Of a stretch of DNA of 64,000 bases, positions 55,913 through 63,496 are shown piece by piece. Positions within the stretch are counted from its first letter, which is position 1; every line of letters begins with the position of its first letter. A program made the position numbers and the translations under genes. The notes under the pieces are model-generated. The model worked only from the letters and a program-made list of their open reading frames with translations. It did no database searches and was not told the origin of the DNA. The stretch is from Streptococcaceae bacterium ESL0729 (GTDB lineage Bacteria > Bacillota > Bacilli > Lactobacillales > Streptococcaceae): positions 1,209,001 to 1,273,000 of the forward strand of contig CP113924.1 in the NCBI GenBank assembly GCA_029391995.1. Reading direction: 5' to 3'.

Positions 55913-57739
55913 ATGGCTGATGTTTTTTTCAATCCCTGGGATGAGGCTTACAAATATCCCTTTGGAGCCTGTAAAAAAGATAGCGACATTCACCTTAAAA
56001 TAAGGGCTGAAAGCCTTAATAAGCTTGATGTCACGCTTATTTTACAGGGGGAAGATGGGCGTGAGCAGGCATTTTCCATGGATAAGCTAAAAGATAGTGA
56101 TTTTTATCAAATTGACTTAACAAGCTTTGATCAAATCGGTAGCTACTCCTACTTTTTTCAGATAGAAGAGTATGATTACGATAACGACAAAACTTATCTT
56201 TTTTTCTACGGGGCATCAAATCCCCATTTAGGCCAAGGACAAAGCTATGAGAAAAAAGAAGATGTCACACCCTTTACCCTCACTATTTTTTTAAGTGACG
56301 ATAAGGCACCAGACTGGTATCAAGAAGCCATTTTCTATCAGATTTTCCCAGACTCTTTTGCCAAATCTACTGTAGAGAAAATTGAAAACCCTTACGACAA
56401 TATCCTCTTTTACGGCAAGAGTTCAGATCGCCCTTACTATGCCAAAGAAAGTAACGGCGATATTGCTCGCTGGACCTACTACGGAGGTAACCTAGCAGGT
56501 ATTAAGGAGAAGATTCCCTACCTGAAAGATTTAGGAGTCACAGCCCTTTATCTAAATCCTATTTTTATGGCTTCAAGTGTCCACCGTTATGATACAGCTG
56601 ACTATATGAAGATAGATCCCCTTTTAGGGAGTGAAGACAACTTTTTAAGCCTTCTCAAGGAGCTTCACCAGGCAGGAATGCATCTCGTTCTTGACGGAGT
56701 CTTCTCTCATGTCGGTAAAAATTCAATTTATTTTAACTATGATGGTCGCTTCGGGCAGGATTTAGGGGCCTATCAAAATCCTCAAAGTCCTTATATGGAT
56801 TGGTTCAAATTTGAAAATTATCCAGATGACTACAAGTCTTGGTGGGGCATTAAAGACCTGCCAGAGATTGATAAGAATCAGGAAAGTTTCCAAGACTACA
56901 TTTATAAAAATAAAAATTCAGTCATTAAAAAATGGACAGACCTTGGCGTTGACGGCTGGCGGCTTGATGTGGCTGATGAACTTCCTGATTTCTTTATTGA
57001 GGGCATTAGAAAGTCCCTCGATGACTATAGTGATAAGGTTTTAATTGGTGAGGTTTGGGAGGATGCAAGCCGCAAGGTATCCTACGGGGTTAAAAGAAAA
57101 TATATCCTTGGAAAATCCCTTGAGGCGGTAATGAACTACCCCCTAAGAAAGATGATTATTGACTTTTTAAATCAAAAAATTTCAGCCAAGGATGCCTATA
57201 GCTTAATCATGGGACTTAGGGAAAATTACCCCAAGGAAATTTTTTACAATAGCTTCAATAATCTAGGTACTCATGATACCCCAAGAATTTTAACTGAGCT
57301 GGCTGAAAATACTAAGAGTCTTGAGCTTGCAGTCCAAATGCTCATCTCCCTTCCTGGGGTTCCTTGTTTCTACTACGGGGACGAGGCTGGTTTGAATGGT
57401 CAAGCTGATCCTGATAATAGAGCCTTCTTCCCTTGGGATAACATCAATCAAGAGCTTACTAGTTTCTTTAAAAAATGGATTAGCTACCGCAAGGAAAATA
57501 AGCTACTCACCAGTGGTGATTTACTAGCTTTCTACACAGATAAGAGTCTTGGAATAATCCGATTTGAAGCTTCAAGTGCTAGTATCTTTATCTTCAACCC
57601 TAGTGGTCAAGATGACTTTATCACAAGGGAGCATGTGAATTCTTCGCAAAATATTCCTAGTGCCTTCTTAGATTTAATCCACGAAAGCACTGTTTTAGCC
57701 CATGATGTCCTGCATTTACATGAAGATAAACTTAGTTAA
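55913..57739 (+). CDS. GH13 alpha-amylase family enzyme (neopullulanase/maltogenic amylase-like)
   Basis: 608 residues, no signal peptide, so intracellular. N-terminal beta-sandwich (about 1-125) typical of the cyclomaltodextrinase/neopullulanase group, then the GH13 barrel: AIFYQIFPDSFA, DGVFSHVG, catalytic Asp352 (GWRLDVADE), Glu380 (IGEVWED) and Asp455 (GTHDTPR), and a C-terminal sheet domain. It should cleave maltodextrins or debranched glycogen, fitting its place before the glg genes, as with apu/amy genes in lactic acid bacteria. RBS AAAGGAG. Separate promoter from glgB. Confidence 0.93.
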   Translation: MADVFFNPWDEAYKYPFGACKKDSDIHLKIRAESLNKLDVTLILQGEDGREQAFSMDKLKDSDFYQIDLTSFDQIGSYSYFFQIEEYDYDNDKTYLFFYGASNPHLGQGQSYEKKEDVTPFTLTIFLSDDKAPDWYQEAIFYQIFPDSFAKSTVEKIENPYDNILFYGKSSDRPYYAKESNGDIARWTYYGGNLAGIKEKIPYLKDLGVTALYLNPIFMASSVHRYDTADYMKIDPLLGSEDNFLSLLKELHQAGMHLVLDGVFSHVGKNSIYFNYDGRFGQDLGAYQNPQSPYMDWFKFENYPDDYKSWWGIKDLPEIDKNQESFQDYIYKNKNSVIKKWTDLGVDGWRLDVADELPDFFIEGIRKSLDDYSDKVLIGEVWEDASRKVSYGVKRKYILGKSLEAVMNYPLRKMIIDFLNQKISAKDAYSLIMGLRENYPKEIFYNSFNNLGTHDTPRILTELAENTKSLELAVQMLISLPGVPCFYYGDEAGLNGQADPDNRAFFPWDNINQELTSFFKKWISYRKENKLLTSGDLLAFYTDKSLGIIRFEASSASIFIFNPSGQDDFITREHVNSSQNIPSAFLDLIHESTVLAHDVLHLHEDKLS

Positions 57740-57766: not shown

Positions 57767-57795
57767 TTGATATTATTAATTAAAAACTATATAAT
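57767..57795 (+). promoter_or_regulatory. glgB promoter
   Basis: TTGATA (57767-57772), 17-nt spacer, TATAAT (57790-57795); start expected near 57802. Confidence 0.85.
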
Positions 57796-57804
57796 TGTTA
57801 GCGA

Positions 57805-57818
57805 AGATAACGCTTTCA
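57805..57818 (-). promoter_or_regulatory. cre-like site (CcpA) at the glgB transcription start
   Basis: Minus strand TGAAAGCGTTATCT matches TGWAANCGNTNWCA at 13 of 14 positions. It lies at about +3 to +17, where CcpA usually blocks transcription. Confidence 0.65.
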
Positions 57819-57846
57819 TAATTTTAGAAGATAAGGAGATAGGACA

Positions 57847-59694
57847 CTGACTAAGGCATACAAAACTTTTACCACTGGAGAAAATTTTAAGGCACAGGAC
57901 TACTTTGGCCACCATCGCCGTAAACATGGTTTTGTCTTTAGACTCTGGGCACCAAATGCCCAAAAAGTGGACTTGGTTGGCGATTTTACCAATTGGGTTG
58001 ATAATCGCCTGGCCATGAAAAAAATTAACGACGAGGTTTGGGAAATAATGACTGATTTGCCCACAGATGGAGACCTCTATAAATTCCTTGTAACCCGTGC
58101 AAACGGTGAGGAAATCATGAAAATTGACCCTTATGCCCTGGAACTTGAGGAAAGACCAGGAACAGCTTCAGTTGTCAGAGACTTTCCTAAAAGGGAATGG
58201 AAGGATAATAAGTGGATTAGAGCCCGCAATAAAAAAGACTATTCCAAGGAAGCTGTAAACATTTACGAAATCCATGCTGGAAGCTTCAAAACCCATGCTA
58301 ACGGGAGTCCTTTGACCTTCAAGGACCTCAAAAAAACGCTCATCCCCTACCTTAAGGAGATGAATTATACCCATGTAGAATTCATGCCCCTTATGGCTCA
58401 TCCTCTAGGCATGTCTTGGGGCTACCAATCAGTGGGCTATTTTGCCCTGGAAAAGACCTTCGGCCAACCCGAAGAACTGAAAGATTTCATTGAAAGTTGC
58501 CACCTTAATGGAATTGGTGCCATTGTTGACTGGGTTCCTGGCCACTTTTGTATCAATGATGATAGCCTGGCCTACTATGACGGAACCCCAACCTATGAAT
58601 ACCAGGACCCAAACAGGGCCAACAACTACCGCTGGGGGGCTTTAAACTTTGACCTTGGGAAACCCCAGGTTCAGTCATTTTTAATCTCGTCTGCCCTCTT
58701 TTGGCTTAACTACTACCACTTTGATGGAATCAGAGTTGATGCGGTAAGTAATATCGTTTACCTGGACTATGATGAGGGCCCATGGCAGCCAAATCACGAA
58801 GGAACAAATGTTAACCTAGAAGGCTATCACTTCCTTAGGAAGCTAAATGCCGTCATTAAAAAGAAACATCCAAGTGCTTTAATGATTGCTGAAGACTCAT
58901 CAAGTCAAATTAAGGTTACAGGAAGTCTTGAAGAAGGCAGTCTCGGCTTTGATTACCGATGGAATATGGGCTGGATGAATGATATTTTAAAATTCTACCA
59001 GCTTGATCCCATCCACAGAAAGAATAACTTTACCCTTTTAACATTTAGCTTCATGTACATGATGAGTGAAAGGTATATTTTGGCCCTATCTCATGATGAG
59101 GTCGTTCACGGTAAGAAAAGTCTCATGCATAAGATGTGGGGTAACCGGGAGCAACAATTTTCTGGCCTAAGAAATCTTTATGCCTATCAAATGTGCCATC
59201 CAGGTAAGAAACTCTTATTTATGGGCAGTGAATGGGGACAATTTTTAGAGTGGAAATTTGATCATGCCCTCGAATGGGTCGACCTTGATGATCCACTCAA
59301 TAAAAAGATGCAGACCTATACCAAGGAACTTAATAGCTTTTACAAAAAAAATAAAGCCCTGTGGGACATTGACCACGACTATGCAGGAATTGAGATTATC
59401 GATGCTGATAATGTTGATGAAAGCGTTTTAAGCTTTGTTAGGAAAAGTGACACAGACTTCCTAGTCTGCATCTTTAATATGACCCCTGTCGAAAGGCATG
59501 ACTTTACCATTGGTCTCCCTGTTGGGGGTACCTACAAGGAAGTCTTTAATAGCGAGCTTGAAAAATTTGGTGGCAAATGGGAAAGACGCAATCCGACAAA
59601 AAAAAGTAAAAAGGAAGAGTGGAAGGCCTATCAGGATACCCTATCATTTACCCTACCAGCGTTTGGGGTCTCAATTTGGAAGTTAAAAAAATAG
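57847..59694 (+). CDS. glgB: 1,4-alpha-glucan branching enzyme, probable CTG start
   Basis: 615 residues from CTG at 57847. The frame runs back through [18 protein letters not shown] and [16 protein letters not shown], the conserved GlgB N-domain (CBM48), to a TAA at 57832. In that stretch there is no ATG, GTG or TTG before the GTG at 57967, which would cut the domain. AAGGAG (57833-57838) is 8 nt from the CTG. GH13 residues: Asp about 298 (GIRVDAV), Glu about 349 (MIAEDSS), Asp about 420 (LSHDEVVHG). It adds alpha-1,6 branches to glycogen. First gene of glgB-C-D-A-P under a cre-like site. Confidence 0.93.
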
Positions 59695-59791: not shown

Positions 59792-60934
59792 ATGTCTAAT
59801 GGAATGCTTGCATTAATTTTAGCCGGGGGACAAGGAACCCGACTTGGAAAGTTTACTCAATCAATAGCAAAACCTGCTGTGCCCTTTGGAGGACGATATC
59901 GAATCATTGATTTCGCCCTTTCAAACTGTGCCAACTCTGGCATTAAAAATGTTGGTGTTATCACCCAATACCAACCACTGGCCTTAAATGAGCATATCGG
60001 TAATGGTTCATCTTGGGGACTTGATGGAGTTGATTCTGGAGTATCAATCTTACAACCCTACAGTGCTGCTGAGGGGAACAAATGGTTTGAAGGTACAAGC
60101 CACGCCATTTACCAAAATATCGACTACATTGACCATATCAACCCAGAGCATGTCCTCATCCTTTCAGGAGACCATATCTATAAGATGGACTATGATGACA
60201 TGCTAAGGGCCCACCGTGATAAACTAGCAAGCCTTACAGTGGCAGTAATTGATGTTCCCCTAAAGGAAGCAAGTCGTTTTGGGATTATGAATACCGACTC
60301 TTCTAACCGGATTGTTGAATTTGAGGAAAAACCAGAAAATCCAAAATCAACTAACGCTTCAATGGGAGTTTACATCTTCAATTGGAAGGAACTTAGGGAA
60401 ACCTTGGTTAATGGAGCTAAAAATGGGGTTGATATGAATGACTTTGGAAAGAATGTTATTCCAGCCTTTCTCGATGCAGGTGAAGGTGTCTATGCTTATG
60501 AATTTGATGGCTACTGGAAGGATGTAGGTACAATTGATTCCCTCCACGAGGCAAATATGGAGTATATCTCACCAGATAATGAACTAGATTCAAGAAACCG
60601 CCAGTGGAAGATTTACTCTCGCAATGAGATTGCTCCACCAAACTTCATTACTGACAAGGCTGATATCAAAGATTCCTTGGTTGTCGATGGGTGCGTTGTT
60701 TCAGGTAGTGTTAAACATTCCATTCTTTCAACCAATGTCCAGGTCAAGGAAGGTGCTGTGATTGAGGATTCCTTTATCATGCCAGGAGCTATTATTGGGG
60801 AGAATGCTGTAATTAAAAATGCCATTATCGGGTCTCATGCCATCATTGGTGAGGGAAGTGAGATAATCGGCGAAGGTGAAGTTCAAGTTGTAGGATATGA
60901 AGAAGTTGTGGGGGTACCAAGTGATGAAAATTGA
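59792..60934 (+). CDS. glgC: Glucose-1-phosphate adenylyltransferase, catalytic subunit
   Basis: 380 residues. Makes ADP-glucose from ATP and glucose-1-phosphate. Nucleotidyltransferase signature [13 protein letters not shown] with the catalytic Arg/Lys, [30 protein letters not shown], and a C-terminal left-handed beta-helix (about 290-380, repeated I/V hexapeptides). It works with GlgD encoded next. The RBS is weak (AAGGT). Overlaps glgD by 11 nt. Confidence 0.96.
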
Positions 60935-62063
60935 TAAATACTGTGCGATCTTAGGAAATGCTGTCGGCTGCCATGAAATGGGAGAGTTAACTGCTAGCCG
61001 TCCCATTGCTACCCTCCCCTTTGACGGGAAATATCGTCTAATTGACTTTCAGCTGTCAAATCTGATTAATGCTGACATCCACAATGTTTATGCAATTTTT
61101 CATGATAACAAGGTCAATAGTGTCCTTGATCACATCAGAAATGGGCGGGAATGGGGCCTAAGTGGCCTACTTAGCCACCTGTTTATCGGCTTTTACAATC
61201 AGGATTTTAATGATCACTATGCTGACCATACCTACTATGAGAAGCTTCTGACCTACCTAAAAAGAACAGGTAGCGACTATACAATCTTTTCAACCTGTGA
61301 CATTCTTTGTAATATCAACCTAAGCCAGGTTATCCACGTCCACAGCGTTTCTCAAAGAACTATGACTGTTGTTTATAAAAAACTTTCAAGGGACATGATG
61401 TCACTTGAAAACCAGGTCTTAGAAATTGATGAAACAGATACTGTTGTTGGAACCAAGGACTTTACAGATGATTCTGCAGCCGAAGAAGAGACCATGTCGA
61501 CTGGTATTTATGTTATCAACACTGACTGGCTGATTGAACAAATGGAGGCTGAACAGACCAAGGACAGACCCCGTAAACTTCGCTACCTACTTAGCAGTCT
61601 TGTGGCTAATGTTGATGCCTTGGCCTATGAATATACTGGCTACTTATCAAATATCCATGATATCAACTCTTACTATCAATCAAACATGGACATGCTTAAT
61701 CCCCAAAAATTCAATTCCCTCTTTTACAGCAGTCAAAGGGTTATCACCAAGGTTAAAAACGAGGAAGCAACTTACTACTCAAATGATTCGCATGTAGAAA
61801 ATTCACACTTTGCCTCAGGGTCAATTATTGATGGTCGAATTGAACATTCTATTGTTTCAAGAAACTGTAGGGTTAATAAGAATGCGGTAATCAAGGACTC
61901 TATCCTCTTCCCAAGAGTTAGGGTTGGAGAGAATGCTAGCCTTGAGTACGCAATTGTCGATAAGGGTGTTGTTATTTCTGACAATGTTAAAATCAAGGGT
62001 CGACCTGATTCACCAGTTGTTATTGGTAAATCTCGTAAAATCACAGAGGACATCATTCTATGA
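60924..62063 (+). CDS. glgD: Glucose-1-phosphate adenylyltransferase, regulatory-type subunit
   Basis: 379 residues from [15 protein letters not shown] at 60924. Same fold as GlgC, but the GGxGxRL nucleotide motif is replaced by [17 protein letters not shown], so it is unlikely to catalyse alone; GlgD raises GlgC activity in Firmicutes. The start lies inside the glgC 3' end (11-nt overlap) after GGGGG. C-terminal beta-helix with [19 protein letters not shown]. Overlaps glgA by 4 nt. Confidence 0.95.
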
Positions 62064-63496
62064 AAATATTATTAGTTGGAGCTGAAGCGGCTCCCTTTAT
62101 CAAAACAGGGGGACTTGGGGACGTTCTTGGAGCCCTACCAAAAAGTCTCAATAAAAATGATGACATTGATGCTAGGGTAATCATCCCCTACTACAAGAAT
62201 ATTCCAGAAAAGTACCGCAGTGAAGCAGAAGACCTCTTCTTCACTCATGTCGATGTCGGCTGGCGTAAGATGTATGCTGGGGTTAAACACCTACTCTTTG
62301 GAAATGTTCACTACTACTTCATCGACAATGAATACTACTTCAACCGAGATGATGTATATGGCTACTATGATGATGGTGAACGTTTTGCCTTCTTCCAACA
62401 GGCTGTCTTACAGGTTCTTCCAGAGATTGGCTTTGTCCCTGATATTTTGCATGTCAATGACTACCACACAGCCATGATTCCCTACTTACTAAGGGAAAAA
62501 TATGCCTGGATTGAAGGCTATCCACAAATGAAGACAATCCTTACCATTCACAATATTGAGTTTCAAGGGCAGTATGGCCCAGAAATGCTTGGGGATTTAT
62601 TCTCCATGGGACTTAATAAGTATCAGGATGGAAGTCTTGAACAAGATGGCTGCCTCAACTGGCTTAAGGCTGGAATTATCTATTCAGACAAGGTTACAAC
62701 GGTCTCTCCAAGCTATGCCAAAGAGATTCAAACCAAGGAATTTGGTAAGGGACTTGATCCTGTTCTAAGGCTTGTTCAGGGGAAACTTTCAGGAATAGTT
62801 AACGGAATTGACACTGAGATTTACAACCCCGCTACTGATAAAAATCTGGTTAAAAATTACTCCCTCAAGCACATGAAGGGTAAGAAAATCAACAAGAGGG
62901 AGCTCCAAAAACAAGTGGGGCTTCCTCAAAGAGATGATGTCCTCCTGATTGGAATTGTAAGTCGCTTGACCTATCAGAAGGGCTTCCAGCTGGTTGTTGA
63001 AAAATTAAATGAAATCCTTTCCTGGGACAAGGTTCAAATCATTGTTCTTGGAACAGGGGATGAACGTTTTGAATACGACTTTTCTTGGTTTGCTGGTGTA
63101 TTTCCTGAAAAAATTTCAGCCAATATCAGCTTCAACCTAAAACTTGCCCAAAGGATTTATGCTGGCTGTGACCTATTCTTAATGCCAAGTGCTTTTGAGC
63201 CTTGTGGTCTCTCTCAAATGATGGCCATGCGTTATGGTAACCTTCCCCTCGTCCACGAAATTGGAGGACTAAAGGATACAGTTATCCCTTACAACAAGTA
63301 TACCCAGACAGGTGATGGTTTTGCCTTTAATAATTTTAATAGCTACTGGATGATGGAGGTGCTAAAAAATGCCTACGACATCTTCATTAATGACCAGCCA
63401 ACCTGGAGAATGCTTCAAAAAAATGCCATGGAAAAAGATTTTTCTTGGGATACAGCAAGTCTTGCCTACCTAGAGCTTTACAGGGAAAGCAAATAA
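62060..63496 (+). CDS. glgA: Glycogen synthase (ADP-glucose)
   Basis: 478 residues, GT5 family, GT-B fold. KTGGLGDVLGALP (about 15-27) binds ADP-glucose; HVNDYHTAMIP, TIHNIEFQGQY, VNGIDTEIYNP and the C-terminal ISRLTYQKGF-like VSRLTYQKGFQLV, SAFEPCGLSQMMAMRYG. Extends alpha-1,4 glucan chains. Starts inside the glgD stop region (ATGA overlap). Confidence 0.97.
   Translation: MKILLVGAEAAPFIKTGGLGDVLGALPKSLNKNDDIDARVIIPYYKNIPEKYRSEAEDLFFTHVDVGWRKMYAGVKHLLFGNVHYYFIDNEYYFNRDDVYGYYDDGERFAFFQQAVLQVLPEIGFVPDILHVNDYHTAMIPYLLREKYAWIEGYPQMKTILTIHNIEFQGQYGPEMLGDLFSMGLNKYQDGSLEQDGCLNWLKAGIIYSDKVTTVSPSYAKEIQTKEFGKGLDPVLRLVQGKLSGIVNGIDTEIYNPATDKNLVKNYSLKHMKGKKINKRELQKQVGLPQRDDVLLIGIVSRLTYQKGFQLVVEKLNEILSWDKVQIIVLGTGDERFEYDFSWFAGVFPEKISANISFNLKLAQRIYAGCDLFLMPSAFEPCGLSQMMAMRYGNLPLVHEIGGLKDTVIPYNKYTQTGDGFAFNNFNSYWMMEVLKNAYDIFINDQPTWRMLQKNAMEKDFSWDTASLAYLELYRESK

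Follow-up and report, generated by a model that had tools for sequence, protein, structure and literature searches.

A CTG codon conserved within a genus of Streptococcaceae is very probably the start codon of glgB

The DNA studied here, called the window, is a stretch of 64,000 nucleotides from the forward strand of Streptococcaceae bacterium ESL0729 (contig CP113924.1, positions 1,209,001 to 1,273,000), the genome of which is a single contig of 1,448,317 bases. It carries the glycogen genes glgB, glgC, glgD and glgA, and glgB is preceded by a gene of the alpha-amylase family, ending at 57739 (Table 1). The longest frame of glgD, beginning at 60897, shares 38 nt with the end of glgC; a start at the second ATG of this frame, 60924 (MKIDKYC), agrees better with the GlgD family and reduces the overlap to 11 nt.

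Table 1. Position of the genes and signals of the glg locus in the window.
Feature	Position	Strand	Remarks
Predicted sigma-70 promoter of the glg operon, TTGATA-17-TATAAT	57767..57795	+	11/12 consensus matches
cre-like site AGATAACGCTTTCA	57805..57818	+	13/14 to the presumed consensus; putative CcpA-type control
In-frame TAA, upstream bound of the open glgB frame	57832..57834	+	
Shine-Dalgarno sequence AAGGAG	57833..57838	+	8 nt to CTG; duplex with the 16S tail -9.6 kcal/mol
CTG, proposed glgB start codon	57847..57849	+	CTG in 4/4 genus genomes; Leu-codon control
glgB, 1,4-alpha-glucan branching enzyme, 615 aa	57847..59694	+	profile NF008967; CBM_48 from residue 20
GTG, glgB codon 41, first canonical codon in frame	57967..57969	+	rejected as start; GTA in G002
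glgC	59792..60934	+	ATG start
glgD	60924..62063	+	probable ATG start
glgA	62060..63496	+	ATG start

Read in the frame of glgB, the start region is TAA GGA GAT AGG ACA CTG ACT AAG GCA ... AAA GTG (57967). ATG, GTG and TTG are absent from this frame between the stop at 57832 and codon 41, and a list of open reading frames restricted to these three codons places the start of the gene at 57967, which would cost GlgB 40 residues. The original prediction had described the open frame correctly, with the stop at 57832 and the GTG at 57967 as first usual start, and was also right in placing the CTG exactly 8 nt behind AAGGAG and in expecting a gene caller to begin 40 codons too late. From CTG, the whole protein scores 927.9 bits on NF008967 (cut-off 577) and 646 bits on TIGR01515 (cut-off 463.95), and contains the domains CBM_48 (residues 20-97), Alpha-amylase and Alpha-amylase_C (residues 518-613). 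The NF008967 score falls to 882.2 bits when the protein begins at GTG, showing that the family profile includes residues 1-40.

The genus sample consists of four genomes forming two close pairs, all of which contain glgB: the window genome (G000), its nearest relative G002, and G003 and G001, with GlgB identities to the window of 100, 89, 72 and 72%, respectively. In each of the four a CTG stands behind a Shine-Dalgarno sequence, despite diverged leaders, the context being AGG ACA CTG ACT AAG in the window genome, AGG GCA CTG AGT AAG in G002 and ACT ACT CTG AAT AAG in both G003 and G001. An alignment of orthologues had been proposed to see whether close relatives carry ATG at this codon, and the answer is CTG throughout. 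Substitutions at codon positions 1, 2 and 3 amount to 2, 1 and 8 in codons 2 to 28 when the window genome is compared with G002, and to 5, 6 and 14 when it is compared with G003; in the 20 triplets upstream of CTG the corresponding numbers are 7, 8 and 9 (G002) and 14, 11 and 13 (G003). The third-position bias present after CTG is absent before it, so that coding constraint starts at about CTG.

Conservation of a codon might simply reflect conservation of the residue, and the Leu codons of the same gene provide a control. CTG makes up 8.2% of 11271 Leu codons in the sampled genes. If the start column is read as Leu, the four GlgB proteins have 42 Leu columns in common, the first of which is CTG in all four genomes, whereas none of the 41 internal columns is. 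Four of these 41 keep one identical codon across the genomes, in no case CTG; the five internal columns that are CTG in the window genome are CTG in no other genome, and G003 glgB does not have a single CTG among its 50 other Leu codons. Since the internal columns do not keep CTG, the codon itself is constrained, beyond the residue.

Translation could instead begin at the GTG at 57967, the first canonical codon in the glgB frame, in which case the conserved residues upstream would not be made. We consider this extremely improbable, since GTG is replaced by GTA in G002, coding constraint extends upstream of it and a start at this position would cut CBM_48. The claim that CTG is the start and GTG comes too late is thus well supported by the four genomes and by the loss of GTG in one of them. 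In both G000 and G002 an in-frame stop is located 15 nt upstream of CTG, which excludes a longer glgB frame there, and the next canonical in-frame codon past CTG is codon 41 and codon 43, respectively; neither genome has a usable canonical start within the conserved frame. G003, with an in-frame TTG at -18 and GTG at codon 33, and G001, with an in-frame GTG at -33 and ATG at codon 9, are weaker witnesses than G002, and CTG is picked in these two by its position behind the Shine-Dalgarno sequence and not by exclusion. Their canonical codons are neither shared nor positioned behind a Shine-Dalgarno sequence, and CTG is favoured as the only candidate that both is shared and has its proper place behind GGAAGGGAG or GAAGGGAG. 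A start at one of these canonical codons is improbable, and so is one at the AAG two codons after CTG, which is likewise common to all four genomes: AAG is 14 nt away from the Shine-Dalgarno sequence in the window, the TTG, GTG and ATG alternatives occur in one genome each, and stops exclude upstream alternatives in G000 and G002.

The rarity of CTG starts is all that speaks for an error of sequencing or assembly that turned an ATG or TTG into the CTG at 57847. Such an error, raised as a concern in the original prediction, is excluded by the same codon in three other genomes, and its probability is negligible. An out-of-frame start followed by a frameshift was rejected as well, since in the window genome no ATG, GTG or TTG is found in any frame between -52 and CTG. 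The sole codon of this kind in the 60 nt upstream of CTG is the TTG at -52, which overlaps the final base of the predicted -10 box. Out-of-frame codons are located upstream in G002 (two ATG, at -50 and -47), in G003 (ATG and GTG) and in G001 (ATG), none of them shared by position with the window genome.

Outside the genus, 106 loci were compared, 80 of them named (from at least 596 matches) and 26 being the best family matches, all from genus g4; at least one gene occurs in both sets. All 106 have ATG, GTG or TTG at or upstream of the aligned GlgB N-terminus in an open frame, the nearest such codon being ATG in each of the 26 family loci, with the proviso that a canonical codon upstream in a distant relative is no proof of its start position. 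The same holds for ten more stretches from genera g4, g6, g7, g9 and g10 (10/10), one of which repeats an earlier gene. Genus g4 is presumably Streptococcus, since one g4 match shares its coordinates with a match from Streptococcus pseudopneumoniae (NZ_JVKV01000105.1), and the window genus g1 would then be another genus of the Streptococcaceae. Among the matches listed, streptococcal GlgB proteins start two residues earlier, as judged by eye. Given the canonical starts outside the genus, the CTG of glgB is probably derived and would have arisen on the branch leading to this genus. The open frame of glgB is 671-743 codons long in most of 11 genomes of family f1, mostly from genus g9 (G009, G011, G019, G025, G030, G034, G037, G040, G049, G052, G055), and about 615-660 codons long in most others; the upstream frame is short, so that the extra length would sit at the C-terminal end.

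The conservation of codon and frame, the loss of GTG in G002 and the canonical starts outside the genus together argue that CTG is very probably the real start, and we estimate the probability that glgB is translated from the CTG at 57847 at roughly 0.93. From the arrangement of signals we infer initiation at this codon, its decoding as fMet and the site of transcription start. A transcript beginning just past TATAAT would have a leader of about 45 nt, predicted to hold no competing canonical start in any frame apart from the TTG overlapping the -10 box. Pairing of AAGGAG with the 16S tail would bring the CUG into the P site for initiation by fMet-tRNA, as is ordinarily assumed for such a codon, giving a protein that begins Met-Thr-Lys-Ala-Tyr. 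The CTG very probably predates the split of the four species and would have been retained since. The output from CTG is likely to be well under that of an ATG.

The promoter from which this leader would be transcribed is a prediction only, as shuffled regions yield an average of 1.5 sites each in the same scan. Between it and the Shine-Dalgarno sequence of glgB lies the cre-like site, recognised with a consensus that we presume to apply; sites of this quality occur five times on both strands of the 64-kb window. G003 and G001 have a 14/14 match at -54/-55 relative to CTG, and in G002 no match reaches 12. The site suggests that the glg operon is under carbon catabolite control.

The Shine-Dalgarno sequences of the four genomes form duplexes with the 16S tail of -9.6 (window), -10.1, -13.0 and -13.0 kcal/mol. 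Compared with 306 sampled genes of the window genome, that of glgB is moderate in G000 and G002, with 33% and 26% of genes being as strong or stronger, and strong in G003 and G001 (3%); each sampled gene was represented by whichever of its first four canonical codons scored best, so that the comparison leans against glgB. A very strong Shine-Dalgarno sequence as a general compensation for the weak codon was therefore rejected, since it is only moderate in G000 and G002. A conserved structure of the leader was not found in the folds of the four genomes, with z values of 1.78 in G000 (unstructured), -1.52 in G002, -0.64 in G003 and 0.28 in G001; the folded stretches of the latter two begin 15 nt before CTG and thus cover a different region.

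Further non-canonical starts were searched for by comparing 424 kb of the window genome with 400 kb of G002, which covers 29% of the chromosome. A first pass flagged 411 of 762 pairs; among the matches listed, most were shadow frames or regions conserved for ribosome binding. Keeping one open reading frame per place left 366 gene pairs, in 18 of which the alignment extends 15 codons or more upstream of the first canonical start of both genes. A clear third-position pattern, as judged by eye, is present in two of the 18: glgB (42 codons; 4, 2 and 12 substitutions) and a gene for an S1-domain protein (56 codons; 4, 0 and 17). A pair at 1180422 on the plus strand of G000 is borderline (38 codons; 2, 4 and 8); a few codons further on it carries an ATG preceded by a GGAGG-like sequence. 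Several more of the 18 are shadow frames in rRNA genes. The resulting count is a lower bound, because genes with a canonical codon upstream in frame, such as infC, escape the test. With glgB being one of two among 366 pairs, no general relaxation of start choice was seen in this test and this 29% sample.

The S1-domain gene (PF00575) is located outside the window on the minus strand of G000 (C1, about 1062900-1063450; L132 and L160, relatives L161-L163) and has no ATG, GTG or TTG of its own at the conserved start in any of the four genus genomes. The gene before it, by eye a cyclophilin-type PPIase, ends in AAA AAA AAC TAA in all four; this A run contains A AAA AAC in the PPIase frame, relative to which the S1 gene is read in the -1 frame. 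Elsewhere in the family, 26 of 26 loci carry an ATG near the beginning of the S1 gene, and in genus g2 PPIase and S1 form one open frame of 334-357 aa in all four stretches. The arrangement suggests that a PPIase-S1 fusion is made, either by programmed -1 frameshifting or by RNA polymerase slipping on the A run, and a frameshift perhaps explains this case better than a non-canonical start; the rival reading is that the S1-domain gene uses a near-cognate start (CTA, ATA/ATT). A shared downstream structure at the PPIase-S1 junction was not evident from single folds, and a literature search on frameshifting, PPIase and S1 gave nothing relevant among the matches listed.

In infC, an ATA (or the adjacent ATC) is located behind AGGAGA in all four genus genomes (L172-L175: G002, G000, G003, G001), making a near-cognate start likely in each of them. 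An in-frame TTG is present upstream in all four, so that the start of infC, too, is one that we infer. Judging from this gene, near-cognate initiation seems not to be foreign to the genus.

It is possible, although doubtful, that CTG has been kept since weak initiation is useful, keeping GlgB scarce compared with the other enzymes that the operon encodes and thereby setting the chain length of glycogen. The CTG found throughout the genus could then act on the first gene of the glycogen operon as a translational brake that has been maintained, setting branching against elongation within one transcript. Such a brake would add a selective reason to the CTG start and does not conflict with it. CTG is retained in all four genomes although a single substitution would give ATG, GTG or TTG, and the genes downstream, glgC, glgD and glgA, start with ATG. 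Published work reports that near-cognate starts lower the output and that a changed GlgB shifts the glycogen chain lengths of E. coli (PMC4433092); tuning of branching enzyme against synthase by weak initiation, which the original prediction had raised as a possibility, would be a guess compatible with the published effects of near-cognate codons. However, conservation of CTG across two close pairs may also be inertia, no conserved leader structure accompanies it, and the strength of the Shine-Dalgarno sequence is not uniform across the four genomes.

For annotation, the CTG start means that common gene finders would truncate the front of GlgB, as would any that accept ATG, GTG and TTG only. 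The gene offers a clean and testable CTG start in a chromosomal enzyme gene, kept across four species of a genus, and comparing the conservation of the frame with that of the codon is a cheap route to more such cases. If the brake were real, the strength of the start codon would fix the balance between branching and elongation and hence the structure of glycogen.

Near-cognate starts have been described before, and the following comparisons rest on the available parts of the papers cited. The closest parallel is the rep gene of the FIB replicon of F-like plasmids, where N-terminal analysis showed a CTG start and a change from CTG to CTC abolished function (PMC11983097). As in glgB, this CTG is conserved, stands behind a good ribosome-binding site and is commonly annotated at a downstream GTG; however, rep is a replication gene of enterobacterial plasmids, whereas glgB encodes a chromosomal enzyme of Streptococcaceae that is known from sequence only. 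In E. coli, CTG gives about 10 times less product than TTG (Hecht et al. as cited in PMC11983097), and CUG complexes are less stable than those with AUG, GUG and UUG (PMC11497404). Conserved near-cognate starts with strong Shine-Dalgarno pairing have been found in another member of the Bacillota, S. aureus, for cvfC1, ccpN and infC (PMC13009471). ccpN encodes a regulator of central carbon metabolism and infC starts with AUA; the output of the conserved AUU/AUA starts is about 10% of that of AUG, and up to 30% for ccpN. These starts differ from glgB in being AUU/AUA instead of CUG and in having been shown by ribosome profiling and reporters, and their extended Shine-Dalgarno sequence is matched better in G003 and G001 than in the window. 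Six core genes of Listeria monocytogenes have non-canonical starts (ATA, ATC, ATT, CTG) that are fixed species-wide (PMC13068326); glgB is not among the genes named with such starts in the available text. In carbohydrate regulators of Enterobacteriaceae the strength of the start codon likewise serves as a setting of carbohydrate metabolism, but these are GTG/TTG-type starts in regulators, and CTG does not appear in the text available (PMC11445065). A search of the open-licence literature for glgB together with the phrase 'CTG start codon' gave no match. Conserved near-cognate starts are thus already known from other bacteria, and the CTG of glgB adds a further case.
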